Shown piece by piece: positions 4,677 to 53,191 of a DNA stretch of 64,000 nt; the stretch's first letter is position 1, and every line of letters begins with the position of its first letter. Below the pieces are notes generated by a model that was not told the DNA's origin, ran no database searches, and saw only the letters and a list, made by a program, of their open reading frames with translations. This DNA is from an uncultured Clostridia bacterium. Its GTDB lineage: Bacteria; Bacillota; Clostridia; Oscillospirales; Acutalibacteraceae. A program made the position numbers and the translations under genes. Location of the stretch: assembly GCA_944384815.1 (NCBI GenBank), contig CALWUW010000015.1:25208-89207 (forward strand), read 5' to 3'.

Positions 4677-5693
4677 ATGACACCCAGAGAACTTGTGATA
4701 CAGGCCCTGGAACATAAAGAGACGCCCATTCTTCCCTACCATATGGAGTTTACGGCGCAGGCGCTGGAAAATCTGATCCGGTATACAGGGGATCCTCACA
4801 TTGAGGAAAAAATGGGAAGCTGCCTTTATTATTGGCAGTATTGGGGATGGCCTACGGAGGTTCCCGGAAAGCCCGGCGTGTTTCGGGACGATTTCGGCGT
4901 GGAATGGGATCGAAACGGAGCGGATAAAGACATTGGTCTGCCTTTGGAATATCAGATCGAGGATCTGGAGGACTGCGACTATGTGTTCCCAACGGTGGAC
5001 GAAGCCCGGCTGCGGGCGCAGTATGAGAAAATGATGCGGGAAAAGGGCGACCGTTTTTGCATGGCCGGCTTTGGGTTTGTTATGTTTGAGCGGTTATGGA
5101 GCCTGATGTCCATGGAGAATGCGTTGGTGAGCATGGTGGCCTGTCCGGAAGAGCTGGAAGCCTTTCTGGATCGCATTTGCGATTATTTCTCCCATTTGGT
5201 GGACATTGCTTTGGAATATGATTTTGACGGTATTTATTTCGGAGATGACTGGGGCCAGCAAAAAGGCCTGATCATGGGCCCCCAGCACTGGCGCCGGTTT
5301 ATTCGGCCCCGGATGGAAAGATTATATGCCAAAGTGAAGAAAGCCGGGCTGTATGTGATACAGCATTCCTGCGGGGACTGCAGTGAAATTTTGCCGGATC
5401 TGGTAGAGATGGGCCTGGATTGTTACCAGACGTTCCAGCCGGAAATTTACGATATCAGCCGCATCAAAAAAGAATACGGGGATCGTTTGTCTTTCTGGGG
5501 AGGAATTTCCACCCAGCGCTGCCTGCCTTATGCCACGCCGGAGGAAGTCAAGAAAGAAGCCCGGCGCATTGCGGATATCCTTGGGCCGGGAGGCGGCTAT
5601 ATCTGGGCGCCTACCCACGCCATCGCTTTCGATGTGCCGCCGGAAAACTGTCTGGCGCTGGCTCAGGTGTTTCAGGAGCAAGATCCTAAATAA
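4677..5693 (+). CDS. Uroporphyrinogen-decarboxylase-family methyltransferase-like protein
   Basis: A 338-residue URO-D family protein beginning TPRELVIQALEH, the usual N-terminus of MtaA/CmuA-like proteins. H230 and C232 (IQHSCGD) form the H-x-C motif that binds zinc in MtaA-type methyltransferases; GIYFGDDWG and FWGGISTQ are further family segments. Members move methyl groups between corrinoid proteins, thiols or pterins, but many remain uncharacterised and true heme biosynthesis is unlikely because the arginines of the HemE N-terminus are absent. GGAG 9-12 bases upstream supports the ATG. It lies 84 bp after abfA on the same strand and ends at a strong shared terminator. Substrate not inferable. 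Confidence 0.75.
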   Translation: MTPRELVIQALEHKETPILPYHMEFTAQALENLIRYTGDPHIEEKMGSCLYYWQYWGWPTEVPGKPGVFRDDFGVEWDRNGADKDIGLPLEYQIEDLEDCDYVFPTVDEARLRAQYEKMMREKGDRFCMAGFGFVMFERLWSLMSMENALVSMVACPEELEAFLDRICDYFSHLVDIALEYDFDGIYFGDDWGQQKGLIMGPQHWRRFIRPRMERLYAKVKKAGLYVIQHSCGDCSEILPDLVEMGLDCYQTFQPEIYDISRIKKEYGDRLSFWGGISTQRCLPYATPEEVKKEARRIADILGPGGGYIWAPTHAIAFDVPPENCLALAQVFQEQDPK

Positions 5694-45771: not shown

Positions 45772-46668
45772 TCAGGAAATGGAAGGAGCGTTTTTCTCCG
45801 AGTTTTCTCCCATATAGAAAATGGCGGTTCCCCCGGGGCCGGTGTGGGTGCCCAGGATGGGACCCAGGTCATTGACCACGATCTTTTTGACTTTTACCCG
45901 GTCCTTGATCTGGCGGACCAGGTATTTCGCATCTTCCGGGGTATCGCTGTGAACCACGAACACCACTTGTTCTTCCGGATCCTGAATGGTGGCAGCCATT
46001 TTTTTGGCCAAGGTATCCAGGGATTGCTTCCGACCCCGGACTTTTGCCACGGCTACCAAATGGCCGTCTTTATCGCTGCTGAGAATAGGCTTGATGCCCA
46101 GCACTGTTCCCATTAAAGCGGCGGCGCCGGAGAGCCTGCCGCCCCGTTTTAAATGGAACAGGTCGTCTACGGTAAAATACTGGGAAAGAAAATGCCGATG
46201 ATGATTCACCCAGGCGGCTACCTGCTCAATGGAGGCGCCTTTTTTCTTTTCCTGCACAGCGTAATATACCAGAAGCCCTTCGCCCATGGAATAAGCCAGG
46301 GTATCCGCCGCCAGAATTTTCCGTTCCGGGTATGCCTTTTTCAGCTCCTCAATGGCTTCCAAAGCCCGGGTAAAGGTTCCGGAAAGGGCGGAAGAAAAGC
46401 CGATATAAAGCACGTCCTTTCCTTCCTGGAGGTACGGCTCGAAGGTTTCCAGAAAAGTGACGGTATTGATCTGATTGGTTTTGGCGATTTCTCCGTTTTT
46501 CAGCCGGCGGAAAAATTCCGGGCTGGACATTTCCCGGGCGTCGGGATAATTATGATAAACTTCATCCCCGAAAACAAATTCCATGGGGATCACATGTACA
46601 TCCAGTTCCTCCACAAGTTCCGGCGTAAGATCCGTTGTGGAATCCGTAATAATTTTAAAATCGGACAT
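45772..46668 (-). CDS. degV: DegV-family fatty-acid-binding protein
   Basis: A 298-residue two-domain protein. FKIITDSTTDLTPELVEEL is the canonical DegV start, with SSALSGTFTRALEAIEELK near 85 and VVHSDTPEDAKYL later. DegV/FakB proteins bind a fatty acid and present it to the kinase FakA. No fakA is present in the window. It is 38 bp downstream of a paralogue (46707-47582) with the same layout, suggesting a tandem duplication of similar but diverged copies (perhaps different acyl preference). Confidence 0.9.
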   Translation of the reverse strand: MSDFKIITDSTTDLTPELVEELDVHVIPMEFVFGDEVYHNYPDAREMSSPEFFRRLKNGEIAKTNQINTVTFLETFEPYLQEGKDVLYIGFSSALSGTFTRALEAIEELKKAYPERKILAADTLAYSMGEGLLVYYAVQEKKKGASIEQVAAWVNHHRHFLSQYFTVDDLFHLKRGGRLSGAAALMGTVLGIKPILSSDKDGHLVAVAKVRGRKQSLDTLAKKMAATIQDPEEQVVFVVHSDTPEDAKYLVRQIKDRVKVKKIVVNDLGPILGTHTGPGGTAIFYMGENSEKNAPSIS

Positions 46669-46706
46669 AAAATGCTCCTCTTTGCAGGCCCAAAATGCCG
46701 GGCCTG

Positions 46707-47582
46707 TTAGTTTTTATCTTTAGCCAAATAAAACAAGGCAATGGTTCCCGGGCCGGAATGGGCGCCGATCACCGGGCCGATGGTATGAATATAGATCTGT
46801 TTAACCGGGAATGCTTCCCGAATCTTTTCCGCCACATATTGGGCGTCTTCCTGGGCGTCTCCGTGGCTGATGCAAATGGTCTGCCCTTCCGGATGTTCGG
46901 CGGATTTTTTCATATGGGCCACCAAAGCGTCCAGAGACTGCCGCCGTCCCCGCACTTTTTCCATGGGGATCAGGTGACCTTCATCATCCACATGAAGAAC
47001 CGGCTTGATGCCCAGCACGGTTCCGAAGAAAGCCGCCGCTCCGCTGACTCTTCCTCCCCGTTTCAGATGATTCAGATCGTCCACGGTAAACCAGTGAGCC
47101 AGTTTGTTCCGGTGAGTCTCCACCCAGGTTTTCAGCTCTTCGATGGAGAGCCCTTCCTTTTTCTTTTCGGCAGCCAGGTAAACCAAAAGCCCTTCGCCCA
47201 TGGAAGCGGCCAAAGTGTCCACCACAATGACCTTTTGCTGAGGATATTGAGCGGAAAGCTCTTCCGCTGCCATACAGGCGTTATTATATGTGCCGGAAAG
47301 GCCGGAAGAAAACGCCATATAAAATACATCTTTTCCTGCTTGCAAAACAGGCTCAAAGGCTTCTACAAACTGAACACTGTTCAGCTGATTGGTGGTGGAG
47401 GATTCTCCCTGGCGGATCCGCCGGTAAAATTCTTTACTGCTTAGGTCCCTCTCATCGGGATAATTGAGATATGCTTTTCCGCCCAGCAAAAAGGAAAGAG
47501 GAATGATTTCAACCCCTATCTCCTGGATCAAAGCAGGAGAAAGATCCGTAGTAGAATCGGAAAAGATCACGTAATCGTTCAT
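46707..47582 (-). CDS. degV: DegV-family fatty-acid-binding protein, paralogue
   Basis: A 291-residue DegV protein, visibly related to its downstream neighbour over its whole length: YVIFSDSTTDLSPALIQEIGVEIIPL, SSGLSGTYNNACMAAEEL and RGGRVSGAAAFFGTVLGIKPVL. The conserved ligand-binding Ser/Thr residues in DSTTD are present. It comes first in the transcription order of the pair. A GGAG site about nine bases upstream supports ATG 47582. Confidence 0.9.
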   Translation of the reverse strand: MNDYVIFSDSTTDLSPALIQEIGVEIIPLSFLLGGKAYLNYPDERDLSSKEFYRRIRQGESSTTNQLNSVQFVEAFEPVLQAGKDVFYMAFSSGLSGTYNNACMAAEELSAQYPQQKVIVVDTLAASMGEGLLVYLAAEKKKEGLSIEELKTWVETHRNKLAHWFTVDDLNHLKRGGRVSGAAAFFGTVLGIKPVLHVDDEGHLIPMEKVRGRRQSLDALVAHMKKSAEHPEGQTICISHGDAQEDAQYVAEKIREAFPVKQIYIHTIGPVIGAHSGPGTIALFYLAKDKN

Positions 47583-47764: not shown

Positions 47765-47958
47765 GCATGTCTTAAAATCCCGCCCAGCCGTAATGTGCCA
47801 AAATAACCTGCCTACAAGAGACAGGTGGGTGCCCTCCCAACGGGTTTCCGCTCCCTTCGTCCGGCAAAAGCCGGGAGGTCTGCAGTCCGCCGCCGGAGAC
47901 GAGCCCCCGTTTAAAAAAGTGTAGGGTTATTTGTGCACAGGTCCGCGAACCGGGCAGG
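47765..47958 (-). ncRNA. ssrS: 6S RNA (SsrS)-like small RNA
   Basis: About 195 bases of noncoding sequence between the DUF1292 stop and a strong terminator on the minus strand. The ends close on each other: minus-strand bases 47938-47925 (TGTGC...AAATAACC) pair with 47808-47794 (GGTTATTTT..GCACA), 13 of 15 positions matching, and GCCCGG-like segments outside extend the stem. Inside lie an AC-TTTTTTAAACGGG segment that can pair with CCCGTT, a hairpin CCGGC-TTTT-GCCGG and a GC-rich terminal arm. One long rod with a central bubble, of 180-230 nt, is the 6S RNA form, and the GGGAGGGCACCCACC segment fits what I recall of clostridial members. 6S RNA binds sigma-A RNA polymerase. A covariance search would settle it. 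Confidence 0.72.
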
Positions 47959-47966
47959 GGGAAAGC

Positions 47967-48284
47967 TTATTCCTGCTCTTCGGGATCTTCTTCGTCCTCA
48001 CTATCATACAGTTCCTGGAAGTGGGACTCAAAAACAGCCGCCAGACGATCCAGCAATTCTTCGTCTTCCACTTCTGCCAGCTGCTGCTCGCCGTTTTCTT
48101 CAATAGCTTCAAAAATAAAGTACATTCCTTCGGATTCCAGCTGTTCCTGAGGATCCTCAAAGGTGGGGAGAAGGGCATAGAAGCAACCCTCATCGTTTTC
48201 AATAACATCCAGAATTTCAAACTCGTGTTCCTGGCCTTCGTCGTCAATTAAAGTGATCAGATCTGCGCTGAATTCTTCGTTCAT
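47967..48284 (-). CDS. DUF1292 (YrzB-like) protein
   Basis: A 105-residue very acidic protein, calculated by eye at about one-third Asp/Glu, of the DUF1292 family. DLITLIDDEGQEHEFEILDVIENDEGCFYALLP is the usual core, and an acidic tail follows. Function is unknown; the family is conserved in Firmicutes and often near yqgF/alaS. Its own promoter is on the minus strand at 48344-48372. Confidence 0.9.
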   Translation of the reverse strand: MNEEFSADLITLIDDEGQEHEFEILDVIENDEGCFYALLPTFEDPQEQLESEGMYFIFEAIEENGEQQLAEVEDEELLDRLAAVFESHFQELYDSEDEEDPEEQE

Positions 48285-48343
48285 ACGTTTTGTCTCCTTG
48301 CGTTTCTAGGAGGGGGAGAAATCCCGCTCCGGAATCTACTGTT

Positions 48344-48372
48344 ATTGTATCTGGTTAAGGCTGTAAAGTCAA
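48344..48372 (-). promoter_or_regulatory. Sigma-A promoter of the DUF1292 gene
   Basis: Minus strand TTGACT (48372-48367), 17-base spacer, TACAAT (48349-48344). Confidence 0.65.
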
Positions 48373-48396
48373 TAAGGACGGGAAAAAAACAAGAGA

Positions 48397-48493
48397 AGGA
48401 ATACTCCTTTTGGCAGAACCTTAGCTCTGCGCCTTTTTCTTCCATAGGTATTGGTGAAACACAGCAAGTATTCCTTATTTTAGAGGGAATACT
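48397..48493. repeat. Cluster of inverted GGAATACT motifs
   Basis: AAGGA-ATAC-TCCTT (48397-48410) is a self-contained hairpin that holds GGAATACTCC. Further on, AGTATTCC (48467-48474) and GGAATACT (48486-48493) form a second perfect 8-bp hairpin. GGCAGA..TCTG.GCCTTTTTC near 48412-48445 lies between and looks terminator-like. These three elements lie between two divergent promoters and have no gene assignment. Confidence 0.6.
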
Positions 48494-48564
48494 CTGTATA
48501 AAGGGGAAAAAATAAGAATTCGGTAAAAACAGTAATAAAAATTAAAAAAAGTTTATAAAAACTA

Positions 48565-48594
48565 TTGACAATGTAGATGAAGATATGCTATAGT
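48565..48594 (+). promoter_or_regulatory. Strong sigma-A promoter of the putative large RNA
   Basis: Perfect TTGACA (48565-48570), 18-base spacer, TATAGT (48589-48594), preceded by A/T tracts that resemble an UP element. Transcription would begin near 48601. Confidence 0.75.
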
Positions 48595-48600
48595 ATAGAC

Positions 48601-49467
48601 ACAGAAAAGAGAGGGAAAACCTTCAGAGAAGATCCCCAAAAAAGCCTTAAGCAGGCGGCGAAAAGGGCGTTTGCTGGAAAGCCAGAAGGCGTTTCCAAAA
48701 AGAAGAGGCTGATAGAGTGTACGAGGATTTGTAGACGAATTGGGATCAGGAGAAAGCCCTTTCGCTGAATGAAAAGAATGTGAGGTGAGTCCAATGGACA
48801 GCGAGCAGTTTCGTTCAGCAGTTGGCGGTCTGTTGGGCTGCAGCTGCTGAATAAAAGGAAAGCTTCCAAAATGTTTCGTTGGTGAAAGCAGCGAAACAGG
48901 ATAAGGAAGCCGGTAAGGTAAAAATTGCCTTACGCAATCTTAGAGTAAAGGAATGAGTCCCAAGTACAAGTTTTTCGTAAAGCCATTTTTATGAAAGGAC
49001 AGGGTAAGAGATTACGATCTGTTTTGAAATAGATGGTAGAAACGGAGAGCTTCAAGAGAGAAAAGGATAACACATCTTTTTGGATTCCTGTTTAAGCTTT
49101 TTTTAAAAGTGAGTTCCGGAAGGGATATGTTTTGAACCGAGAAGAAGATGGAATATGGATCCGGTCTCTTGAGGATGTAAACTTTGCTGAGGTAAAGCCA
49201 ATGTACTGATTTGATCGCTTGTTTATAGAACAGGCAAAGGAAATCAGAAATCATAGAACTTGGATCTGAGAGGTACGAGAACCAGGGAGCACGCTCCGAT
49301 TCATAGCAGGATGTGATGGTACGGAATGCGGAAGGGAAAGCGTGTAGTGCAGAAAAACAGAAACTTTGGTTGACAAGAGTGCTGTAGATGCAGTCCCGCA
49401 GTGAAGAGTTCGTATAAAACAAATCAATGAGGGGTTCGGACCGCAAGGCCGGAACCCCTTTTCTTTT
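48601..49467 (+). ncRNA. Putative large structured noncoding RNA, about 870 nt, class unknown
   Basis: From a near-consensus promoter to a T-run terminator no reading frame has a convincing start, ribosome binding site and codon pattern. Base composition is clearly poorer in GC than the flanking genes and purine-rich, with many GAAA/GGAAA segments as in large structured RNAs. Local helices are dense: GTCC-AAT-GGAC (48789-48799), CAGCAGTTG with CAGCTGCTG (48816-48824/48841-48849), TGTTTCG with CGAAACA nested in GCTTCC with GGAAGC (48862-48910), GTAAGG with CCTTAC (48913-48933), CTGATTT with AAATCAG enclosing GCTTGTT with AACAGGC (49206-49247), and GGAG-CACG-CTCC (49286-49297). The length resembles ROOL, GOLLD and OLE-type RNAs, but I do not recognise any of their signature sequences. 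RNase P, tmRNA and group II intron cores are absent. Confidence 0.6.
49431..49467 (+). terminator. Intrinsic terminator of the putative large RNA
   Basis: GGGGTTC (49431-49437) pairs with GAACCCC (49452-49458), with further pairs and a GCAA loop inside, then TTTTCTTTTT. Confidence 0.88.
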
Positions 49468-49657
49468 TAGCAGGCGTCAAAAAAGACTTGTTTTTTTCCG
49501 CGTTTTTGTATACCATGAAGTGGAGAGAAATTTCTTTTGTCCGTGCGGGACCTTTATTGGAATGGAAATCCCAGTGCCCGGATATTCTATACGTGTTTCT
49601 TACAAACGCGTTTTTTACGAACACAGCGCTTAGCTGGCGGAAATGGAGGATTTACCC

Positions 49658-50810: not shown

Positions 50811-51033
50811 ATACGGTTTGAAATGCCAAGGAACCAGGAAACAGGGGAAATACGTACCTGGGAACAAGGCAAAGTAGATCAATAGGGAAGCCGGTGGGAA
50901 TCCGGCGCAACCGCCATTACTGTATTTGAAGAGCAAAAGCCCATGGCCATTGGAGTTTTCTGAGAAGGCGGGCTTTGGCGAGAGCAGTTTTTCACAAACT
51001 GTCGGGATTCATAAGTCAGGAGACCTGCCGTAT
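50811..51033 (+). promoter_or_regulatory. Cobalamin riboswitch aptamer
   Basis: The B12-box signature is complete: AATAGGGAAGCCGGTGGGAA, then TCCGGCGCAACCGCC with ACTGTA, and GTCAGGAGACCTGCC near the 3' end. P1 is perfect: ATACGG (50811-50816) with CCGTAT (51028-51033). P3 TGCC/GGCA brackets the 5' arm. It senses adenosyl- or related cobalamins and lowers expression when they are plentiful. Confidence 0.95.
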
Positions 51034-51049
51034 TTGGATTGGTTCGTAC

Positions 51050-51283: not shown

Positions 51284-53191
51284 ATGAAACGGTTTTTTAG
51301 CAGAACAGCATCGGCTTTGCTGTCCGTTTTACTGCTTATTTCTGTTTTTGCCGTAAACGTATCCGCCGAAGGGGGAGCATCCGGAGCCGCCGGAACCTTT
51401 ACTTTGGTGGGCGATACAGCGCATGGCGATTCGGGGCACACGGCCTATTCCGTGTGGCTTCAGGATGTTCCCTTTACCATTGAGGAAGGGGATACTGCCC
51501 TGGAGGTATTCAAAGAGATCCTGACGGAGAACGGGTATGCGTATGAAGGAGATCCGTATATTTCCGCCATTACCACTCCCGGCGGTTGCCGGTTGGCTTC
51601 CGGAACTAACGGAAGCGCCAGTGGCTGGATGTACTACGTCAACGGAGAGATGGCCAGCGTAGGAGCGGACCAATATGTGCTGCAGGCTGGCGATCAGCTT
51701 CTCTGGATGTATGTGGATAATTGGGCGGACGATTCCCGTGTGGAAGGCGACCAGGTGGTAGCCGATACGGACGTGGTTCTTCCCTCCTACACATCTTCCT
51801 GGAATAGCTTCCGGGGAAATGAAAACAACATTGCCGTTTATCAGGGAAACACCCCTCTTACCCAGGATCAGGCACAGAAAGCCTGGAGTTTTGCTTTGAA
51901 ACAGCCTTCTGAGTGGAGCAAAAATGTTTCCGATCCTATTTTTGTAAACGGCAATATGTATGTGGCCGTAGGCAGCGAATTGCTGGTGCTGGATGCGAAA
52001 GGAAATTGCCTGAAACGGGTTCCTTTGGCGGCTTCCATCGAATTTACCTGCCGCCCTGTTTATGGGGACGGCCGGATCTTGGTGCCGCTGCCTGGAGGAC
52101 GGGTGCAGGCGCTGGCAGCAGATACGCTGCAGACCCTTTGGGTAACGGAAGAATTGCCGCTGTATACAGCGGCCGGAGGCACGGAGTATACCCATCAAAC
52201 CATGGCCAGCCTGACGTATAAGGATGGCTATGTGTATTTAGGTACAGCTTGCGCAGACTTTGTGACCAGTTATGGTGGAACATACCTGTGCATCGAGGCT
52301 TCTACGGGGACCACCGTATGGAAGTATGAGAATACCCAGGCCGGTTACTATTGGGGTGGCGCTGTATGTGTAGGCGATGCGCTGGTATTTGCCGGGGATG
52401 ATGGAAAATTGGTTTCCCTGAATGCGAAAACCGGAGCCAAGATCGCGGAGCTGGATTTGGGCGCCGGATGCCGTTCTACCACTGTATATGAAGGCGGAAA
52501 CGTGTATGTGACCACGCTGGACGGCGCTGTGCATAAGGTAGCCATGCAGGCAGACGGTTCCTTCGGAGCCCATGCCCAGGCCTCCTTTGGCGCATACAGC
52601 ACCTGTACTCCCGCTGTGTACGGCGGAAAGATCTATGTAGGCGGCTCGGATGCCAATTATAAGGGCGTTTTTGCTATTTTGGACAGCGAAAGCCTTAAAG
52701 TTCTTCAGAGTTATGAAGCTCCTGCGGACGTAAAATCGGCGCCGCTGGTGGCTGTTCAGGAAGACGGAACCGTGGCTGCCTATTTCACCAGCAATACAAG
52801 ACCCGGCGCTTTGTATGCAGTGGAAGCGGGTAAAGAAGGCGTAAGCGTAGTCTTTACGCCGGAAGAGGCGCTGCAGAATTACTGCATGGCCAGCGTGTCC
52901 GCAGGACCTGACGGAACGTTGTATTACACCAACGATTCCGGCTCCCTGTTTGCTATCTCTATGGTAGAAGAAGAGCCGGAAAGCAGTTCTTCCGGTTCCG
53001 GCACGGAGTCTTCTTCCTCTTCTCAGTCCTCTGAATCCGGTTCTTCCGGCACAGGATCTGAATCTTCCTCTCAAAACGGAGAGAATTTCCCCACAGGTGA
53101 GTCTTCCTGGTCTATGGCCGCATTTGTGCTGTTGACTGTTTCTCTGGCCGGCGGCTTGCTTTGCCTGAGAAAATCGGAAAAAACGGCGTGA
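51284..53191 (+). CDS. Secreted DUF4430 (transcobalamin-like) plus PQQ-type beta-propeller protein with sortase-like anchor
   Basis: A 635-residue surface protein. Residues 1-28 are a signal peptide (cut near VSA-EG). Residues about 40-135 match DUF4430, the domain shared with the C-terminal half of transcobalamin/intrinsic factor (SVWLQDVPFTIEEGDTALEVFKEIL, ASGWMYYVNGE). Residues about 150-560 form a PQQ-like beta-propeller of repeated GNMYVAVGSELLVLDA-type blades. A Ser/Gly/Glu linker (about 565-605) precedes FPTGE, a hydrophobic helix and LRKSEK, the layout of a sortase-anchored protein with LPxTG replaced by FPTGE. The cobalamin riboswitch directly upstream means repression by B12, so capture of corrinoids at the cell wall is the natural inference. 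No transporter gene is adjacent. Confidence 0.85.
   Translation: MKRFFSRTASALLSVLLLISVFAVNVSAEGGASGAAGTFTLVGDTAHGDSGHTAYSVWLQDVPFTIEEGDTALEVFKEILTENGYAYEGDPYISAITTPGGCRLASGTNGSASGWMYYVNGEMASVGADQYVLQAGDQLLWMYVDNWADDSRVEGDQVVADTDVVLPSYTSSWNSFRGNENNIAVYQGNTPLTQDQAQKAWSFALKQPSEWSKNVSDPIFVNGNMYVAVGSELLVLDAKGNCLKRVPLAASIEFTCRPVYGDGRILVPLPGGRVQALAADTLQTLWVTEELPLYTAAGGTEYTHQTMASLTYKDGYVYLGTACADFVTSYGGTYLCIEASTGTTVWKYENTQAGYYWGGAVCVGDALVFAGDDGKLVSLNAKTGAKIAELDLGAGCRSTTVYEGGNVYVTTLDGAVHKVAMQADGSFGAHAQASFGAYSTCTPAVYGGKIYVGGSDANYKGVFAILDSESLKVLQSYEAPADVKSAPLVAVQEDGTVAAYFTSNTRPGALYAVEAGKEGVSVVFTPEEALQNYCMASVSAGPDGTLYYTNDSGSLFAISMVEEEPESSSSGSGTESSSSSQSSESGSSGTGSESSSQNGENFPTGESSWSMAAFVLLTVSLAGGLLCLRKSEKTA

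Follow-up and report, generated by a model that had tools for sequence, protein, structure and literature searches.

6S RNA binds RNA polymerase, and the devices known to silence ribosomes are, to our knowledge, mostly proteins. Here we describe a candidate RNA gene beside a 6S RNA gene in a 64,000-nucleotide (nt) stretch of an uncultured Clostridia bacterium of the family Acutalibacteraceae (contig CALWUW010000015.1, positions 25,208 to 89,207 of the forward strand; hereafter the window, whose own numbering is used). Its predicted transcript carries several ribosome-binding motifs, the later of which, across related loci, open frames closed almost at once by a stop codon. Among published systems, OLE RNA contains an internal mimic of the Shine-Dalgarno (SD)/anti-SD duplex that binds ribosomal protein bS21, and bS21 sequestration has been proposed (PMC12054373, PMC12286853). 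GOLLD is said to bind ribosomes in pull-downs (PMC12286853). Two-codon minigenes and start-stop sites have AUG, a codon and a stop behind an SD sequence (PMC8708949, PMC11955535), and STAB-SD stabilisers have a strong SD site without translation of a gene (PMC3997798).

The RNA described here resembles OLE as a large structured RNA of the Bacillota with a putative link to the anti-SD region of the 16S rRNA, for which OLE-bS21 is one precedent (PMC12054373); unlike OLE, with its internal duplex mimic, it has free SD-like sites with start-stop open reading frames (ORFs), several per molecule. It falls in the size class of ROOL and GOLLD, which are encoded by phages or prophages, often by tRNA islands, and have conserved complex folds (PMC12286853), whereas the RNA here is chromosomal, lies beside 6S RNA and varies in length and folding. 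Its AUG-codon-stop sites resemble known minigenes, each of which occurs singly, in a leader or within a gene (PMC8708949, PMC11955535); in the stand-alone RNA described here such sites make up an array that is conserved over many genera. Likewise, STAB-SD is a single 5' element of an mRNA (PMC3997798), and here strong sites are repeated along a non-mRNA. 6S RNA (RF00013) is the immediate neighbour, and the analogy we propose is that of holding a core machine; the sequence is a different one and the putative partner is the ribosome rather than the polymerase.

A cmscan search against Rfam 15 found no family at gathering threshold for the RNA, and ROOL, GOLLD, OLE and HEARO were absent, in agreement with the initial annotation of this DNA, which had recognised none of their signatures. 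At E values up to 10, the interval 48300-49650 gave six Rfam matches, none to a large-RNA family. A match to BjrC68 (25.5 bits, below the gathering score of 39) was rejected as driven largely by the terminator hairpin, and the 6S model matched only 47773-47963 on the other strand and nothing at the RNA itself. A phage origin was also rejected: viral contigs held one exact motif match, which opened a longer ORF, and no match to a longer pattern; a second motif pattern had eight matches there. Among the papers listed by searches of an open-access library, none described the RNA class, and those listed by one of these searches made no mention of DUF1292, the neighbouring protein family used as a marker below. 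The RNA thus appears to be of a new kind, since none of the RNA classes tested, nor any found in that literature, is an array of sites at which ribosomes would start and stop.

The RNA and its motif copies are arranged as follows.

48601 to 49468, plus strand: predicted transcript of ~870 nt, its start inferred from the promoter and its end from the terminator.
48782 to 48793, plus strand: motif copy R1, GAGGTGAGTCCA, a predicted ribosome-binding site whose pairing with the 16S 3' tail, flank included, is predicted at -19.0 kcal/mol.
48794 to 48850, plus strand: 18-codon ORF MDSEQFRSAVGGLLGCSC plus stop; this first-copy ORF is also found in two congeners (genomes G001 and G002), with other forms in other genera.
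48950 to 48961, plus strand: motif copy R2, GGAATGAGTCCC, then AAGTACAAG, with no ATG; in G001 and G002 as GGAATGATTCCC; predicted 16S-tail pairing of -9.9 kcal/mol.
49189 to 49200, plus strand: motif copy R3, a degenerate one, GAGGTAAAGCCA; its pairing with the 16S tail is predicted at -12.9 kcal/mol; the congeners have GAGGTAACCACCA.
49201 to 49209, plus strand: start-stop mini-ORF ATG-TAC-TGA (Met-Tyr-stop), identical in G001 and G002.

The 18-codon ORF is opened by a strong ribosome-binding motif, GGTGAGTCC-A-ATG, and two weaker copies lie further along. A STAB-SD stabiliser would have its strong SD close to the 5' end of the RNA; R1 is ~180 nt downstream of the presumed 5' end, and the motif of one relative (L114) is close to its own presumed 5' end. 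The stretch best conserved in the congeners, GAGGTGAGTCCAATGGACAG, is the ribosome-binding site with the beginning of the ORF and forms no helix, and the congener versions of MDSEQFRSAVGGLLGCSC differ at three positions. R3 with its ATG-TAC-TGA (49189-49209) has the sequence of a two-codon minigene, with a moderate SD. A protein gene on either strand was rejected: the longest sense ATG frame inside the RNA is 23 amino acids (aa), and for an antisense frame of 144 aa tblastn brought up nothing convincing in the two congeners (best E 0.013, spanning 33 residues), which also speaks against a decayed gene. The remark of the initial annotation that the region lacks a credible reading frame is borne out by so short a longest frame; what it overlooked is the 18-codon ORF with its strong ribosome-binding site (48782-48850). 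BLASTN of the window's own genome returned a single copy of the RNA.

BLASTN of 60 relatives found the RNA core in the two congeners (77% and 75% identity over ~290 nt), and outside these two the matches were mostly fragments by the AT-rich promoter. A pattern search of 300 genomes of the window's family found the motif (at most one mismatch) in nine, two of which, from other genera, hold it at the corresponding site, beside 6S RNA and divergent from the DUF1292 gene. Because the motif occupied a like position in other genera, the DUF1292-divergent region then served to sample loci independently of the motif. A DUF1292 gene was located in 100/120 genomes within the window's family and in 53/61 within a second one. 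The sample comprised 30 loci and 40 further ones in the former, and 29 of 30 new loci plus five chosen for having the motif in the latter; at least two of the 71 regions of the window's family (L061 and L062) had also been chosen in this way. Duplicates were removed before counting (seven loci for the start-stop and fixed-regex counts, five for the strict-motif count).

With the fixed regex, at least one motif copy was found in 32/71 regions of the window's family and 26/34 of the second family, and at least two in 17/71 and 20/34 respectively (15/29 in the second family without the five motif-chosen loci). The antisense control gave at least two copies in 0/71 and 1/34. A stricter form of the motif, applied to 73 regions, gave 24 copies in sense, none in antisense and none in each of 20 shuffles. 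Copies per locus reach six. One relative (genome G143) has the RNA with a start-stop copy. In the fixed-regex set, the motif leads into an ATG in 34/62 and 44/75 copies; AAG, AAA and CC versions are frequent, and a CC pair and GUACAGU-like bases downstream of the motif recur between loci. 6S RNA was present in the same fragment in 19/20 and 18/20 regions scanned with Rfam, not all 40 of which have the motif. A short form of the motif occurred order-wide in 35 of 147 genomes (55 matches vs 7 for a reversed control pattern). As to occurrence outside the order, a strict pattern matched none of 118 genomes belonging to the class, a result of little weight, since it also misses the window's own genome.

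Two kinds of copies can be told apart by the frames that they open. Among the first ATG copies of the loci, 29/44 open a frame of 11-34 codons. Of the later ATG copies, 34/36 reach a stop within three codons (28 directly after codon two), and restriction to one genome per genus gave 24/26 (second members of a genus, L066, L220, L221 and L224, were left out here and in the energy tests below). The background for other ATGs in the same loci was 164/1026 (Fisher p = 7e-17). The regex excludes the bases downstream of the motif; the degenerate R3 and its ATG-TAC-TGA fall outside this regex, hence outside these counts. The stops were TAA (23), TAG (7) and TGA (4), and the second codons AAA (10), TAC (5), ATT (4), ACT (3), AGA (3) and others. 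Use of all three stops behind varied second codons points to selection for a stop, rather than to a single repeated word.

The extended motif, for example AGAAAGAGGUGAGUCCA, is predicted to pair over its full length with the 3' tail of 16S rRNA, with one bulged base per strand, at -19.2 kcal/mol. The core of the tail sequence used was located in 6/10 genomes searched. Predicted pairing over the 20 nt upstream was -16.6 kcal/mol for first ATG copies (n = 40) and -12.7 for later ones (n = 26); AAG/AAA copies gave -15.1 (n = 23), positions upstream of long ORFs -8.9 (n = 171) and random sequence -7.0. By these values copies lacking AUG match those that have one, and all three groups surpass the long-ORF positions. 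Since the copies had been picked by their GG-CC core, the same cores were also compared with real and random flanks (-15.1 vs -12.5 kcal/mol, n = 89, p = 1e-13).

Our preferred reading, held tentatively and at slightly less than an even chance, is that of a stand-alone RNA to which small ribosomal subunits would bind at several points with almost no translation, most likely so as to be occupied or stored. A strong promoter by the 6S and DUF1292 genes would drive this RNA, which would not be translated as a whole and would offer several ribosome-binding sites on a shared motif, (AAAG)GGUGA-N-UCCA, each forming a duplex with the 16S 3' tail with one bulged base. The first site would open a short ORF, of 18 codons here and usually 11-34 in relatives. 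Later AUG sites, in which a stop comes one to three codons on, would make a ribosome starting there stop at once, and sites with AAG or CC in place of AUG could hold only a small subunit. Subunits would so be docked at several places and engaged without productive translation, and the likeliest purpose would be to occupy or store initiation-competent subunits, beside 6S RNA doing alike for RNA polymerase. Occupation or storage is favoured because copies lacking a start codon are also kept and the sites are repeated along the RNA; the 6S neighbourhood as a pointer to it is suggestive only. Expression, docking, translation and the storage role are what we infer, next to a motif, a synteny, a start-stop bias, a 16S complementarity and two covarying helices read from the sequences. 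A wider claim, unlikely in our estimate if with a substantial chance, is that the RNA would do for ribosomes what 6S RNA does for the polymerase: dedicated to this task and widespread in the order, it would park small subunits or initiating ribosomes on a start-stop array, so that the 6S/DUF1292 locus would encode one polymerase-holding and one ribosome-holding RNA.

Several observations weigh against subunit docking and storage. The regex found no motif copy in 39/71 and 8/34 DUF1292 loci, where the RNA would be absent, moved or too diverged. Motif cores were predicted to be no more open than other parts of the RNA (mean unpaired 0.38 vs 0.49 elsewhere; 53 copies, 14 loci). R2 and R3 of the window are predicted to pair weakly with the 16S tail (-9.9 and -12.9), and 107 other 17-mers in the window reach -15 or better, so pairing energy alone proves nothing. 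Early stops also occur behind later copies in the +1 frame (22/36; 6/36 in the +2 frame), largely because codon two often starts with A, giving ATGA, which contains TGA. Finally, among 39 distinct cases of the motif with ATG away from DUF1292, a stop followed within three codons in 6, at 4-40 codons in 23 and beyond 40 in 10.

The window RNA folds with a minimum free energy of -276.5 kcal/mol (z = -7.8 vs 20 shuffles). Two helices, selected by eye, carry the comparative evidence for structure, which is confined to them.

48862 to 48867, plus strand: helix H1, 5' side, GCTTCC; 6/6 pairs kept in 3/3 sequences, two pairs changed on both sides.
48905 to 48910, plus strand: helix H1, 3' side, GGAAGC, partner of 48862 to 48867.
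48913 to 48918, plus strand: helix H2, 5' side, GTAAGG; 6/6 pairs kept in 3/3 sequences, two pairs changed on both sides.
48928 to 48933, plus strand: helix H2, 3' side, CCTTAC, partner of 48913 to 48918.

Jointly, 12/12 pairs are intact in three species, four with two-sided changes. RNAalifold on the whole core gave 14/116 pairs with two-sided changes, many broken pairs and a covariation term of only -2.07, and single-sequence folds of the first-copy ORF regions of different loci agreed on no common structure. Over nine loci the folding z spanned -8.2 to -0.9 (below -5 in four, above -2.5 in another four), so strong folding is no constant of the class. RNA length ranges from ~200 nt (L148) to ~2000 nt (L123, with motif copies as far as position 2030). 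To judge from these comparisons, the class is a loose scaffold carrying a conserved motif, unlike the constant folds of ROOL and GOLLD. Its constant traits are a strong promoter, several ribosome-binding motifs and a predicted barrier to translation past a few codons, and of its properties the ribosome-binding motif is the most constant. The nested helix at 48862-48910 in the initial annotation is real, its outer stem covarying, and the search it had proposed for relatives with covarying helices succeeded in the two congeners at the identities given above, with compensatory changes in H1 and H2. Its large structured RNA survives as a stand-alone, structured and mostly non-coding transcript of ~870 nt in an RNA-rich locus; the repeated ribosome-binding motifs, the small ORF and the start-stop mini-ORFs were unforeseen. 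The likeness it drew to ornate RNAs such as ROOL, GOLLD and OLE suits the window copy and suits the class less, given lengths of ~200-2000 nt and variable folding.

The main rival to subunit storage is that the docked subunits shield the RNA: sitting at strong ribosome-binding sites, whether or not a start codon follows, they would form roadblocks guarding a structured RNA of another function from 5'-3' decay, as single sites do in described precedents (PMC3997798, PMC8708949). This has an appreciable chance, if an unlikely one. AUG-less motif copies fit it well, as does the strongly folded window RNA (z = -7.8); but a single site by the 5' end ought to be enough for this, and up to six copies are found along the RNA, and several relatives fold weakly. 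We are more doubtful of a dual-function or coding RNA whose product is the peptide of the first small ORF, the remaining transcript regulating it or being a long 3' part. The 11-34-codon frames behind 29/44 first ATG copies speak for a peptide, as do the frequent N-terminus M-(G/D)-x-x-E, the QFRSAV shared by the window and a locus of another genus (L194) and the MVSEIEQ(E/Q)FRTARLAGAH carried behind the same motif in a third family. However, sequence and length vary strongly between loci, the short loci L148, L152 and L114 have no such ORF, and the bases for QFQSAV are common to G001 and L193, so that RNA-level homology accounts for part of the likeness.

It is also conceivable, at a low probability, that a protein or a different RNA binds the motif, its resemblance to a ribosome-binding site being incidental and selection after AUG copies merely removing translation. 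The frequent AAG, AAA and CC versions speak for this, as do the recurrent CC pair and downstream GUACAGU-like bases, which answer no ribosomal need; but if initiation were unwanted, loss of AUG would be easier than AUG plus a stop, and ATG still follows 34/62 and 44/75 copies. Very improbable, finally, is an ordinary leader, that is, a cis-regulatory 5' region of the trxB-like gene, or a decayed gene. The trxB-like gene does come next in the window and in L062, yet a terminator and ~170 nt separate it from the RNA, and a cis leader of trxB is disfavoured by the next ORF lying on the other strand in G001 and G002; as for a relic, the antisense frame shows no protein likeness in the congeners.

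The motif was also seen at other sites. One genome (G107) has a locus with several motif copies, a promoter and a terminator outside the DUF1292 locus. In family f13, four genomes carry a 16-18-codon ORF behind the same motif outside that locus; in L196, L198 and L199 it is an 18-codon ORF, MVSEIEQ(E/Q)FRTARLAGAH or nearly so, behind AAAGGGGTGAGTCC, on a fragment without 6S RNA or DUF1292, and may possibly be a relocated relative. In L064 (G178), copies at 5088 and 4208 on the minus strand, ~880 nt apart, open mini-ORFs MYN and MYS directly followed by terminator-like hairpins; each lies upstream of a gene, as a start-stop leader outside the 6S locus. In Caproicibacter fermentans (L035 and L060), the motif and a three-codon ORF (Met-Asp-Tyr-stop) stand upstream of a gene for a secreted-looking protein, away from DUF1292. 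On a rumen Oscillospiraceae contig (L045), a DUF1292-like gene opens with GAGGTGAGTCCAATGGACAGTGAA, its ribosome-binding site and first codons (MDSE) being as in the small ORF. In congener G001 the RNA is split, in its 5' part, across two contig ends (L032 1-85 and L033 1-75) at an array of the 8-nt unit CAAGAGAT, where a tandem repeat inside the RNA gene probably broke the assembly.

The boundaries and neighbours of the RNA in the window are as follows.

48565 to 48594, plus strand: sigma-A-type promoter TTGACA-18-TATAGT with TG ahead of the -10 box, from a promoter scan; kept in G001 and G002.
49431 to 49468, plus strand: intrinsic terminator, bulged stem and T-run, from sequence inspection and the RNA fold.
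47967 to 48284, minus strand: gene for a DUF1292 protein (PF06949 in Pfam), the divergent neighbour and syntenic marker used to locate the locus in other genomes.
47773 to 47963, minus strand: 6S RNA gene (Rfam match, 59.4 bits).

The promoter agrees with 11/12 consensus positions, and ~50 nt around it are 82-83% identical in the two congeners. The promoter scan found 5 promoter-like sites in 3 kb vs a shuffle mean of 2.8, so only the quality of this promoter is special, not its presence. The terminator stem halves lie at 49431-49439 and 49449-49458, with the T-rich run reaching 49468; the bulge explains its absence from the list of an ungapped scanner, and the RNA fold does pair the stem. In G001 and G002 a different hairpin plus T-run closes the RNA at the corresponding place, and the next ORF past it is on the opposite strand in both. 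In the window, a trxB-like gene (Pfam: pyridine nucleotide-disulphide oxidoreductase) follows on the other side of the RNA, past the terminator and ~170 nt. GC content is 0.37-0.46 in the RNA body vs ~0.48-0.58 in flanking genes, and A+G content is 0.62. The near-perfect promoter, T-run terminator, lowered GC, A/G richness and adjacent 6S-like RNA of the initial annotation were thus all recovered. Behind the 6S RNA gene lie two adjacent similar DegV-like genes (45772-47582, minus strand; Pfam scan of the second one only). At 50850-51046 a cobalamin riboswitch (75 bits) precedes a large protein gene (51284-53191) with DUF4430 and PQQ-type repeats, possibly encoding a corrinoid-linked surface protein.

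Even if ribosomes merely protect the RNA, a non-coding RNA with arrays of minimal ORFs in it would represent a new design, and the start-stop bias suggests a general route to further RNAs of this kind. If the preferred reading of docking and storage is true, an RNA that captures ribosomes by repeated start-stop sites would constitute a new control of translation capacity, and this in bacteria plentiful in the guts of animals.
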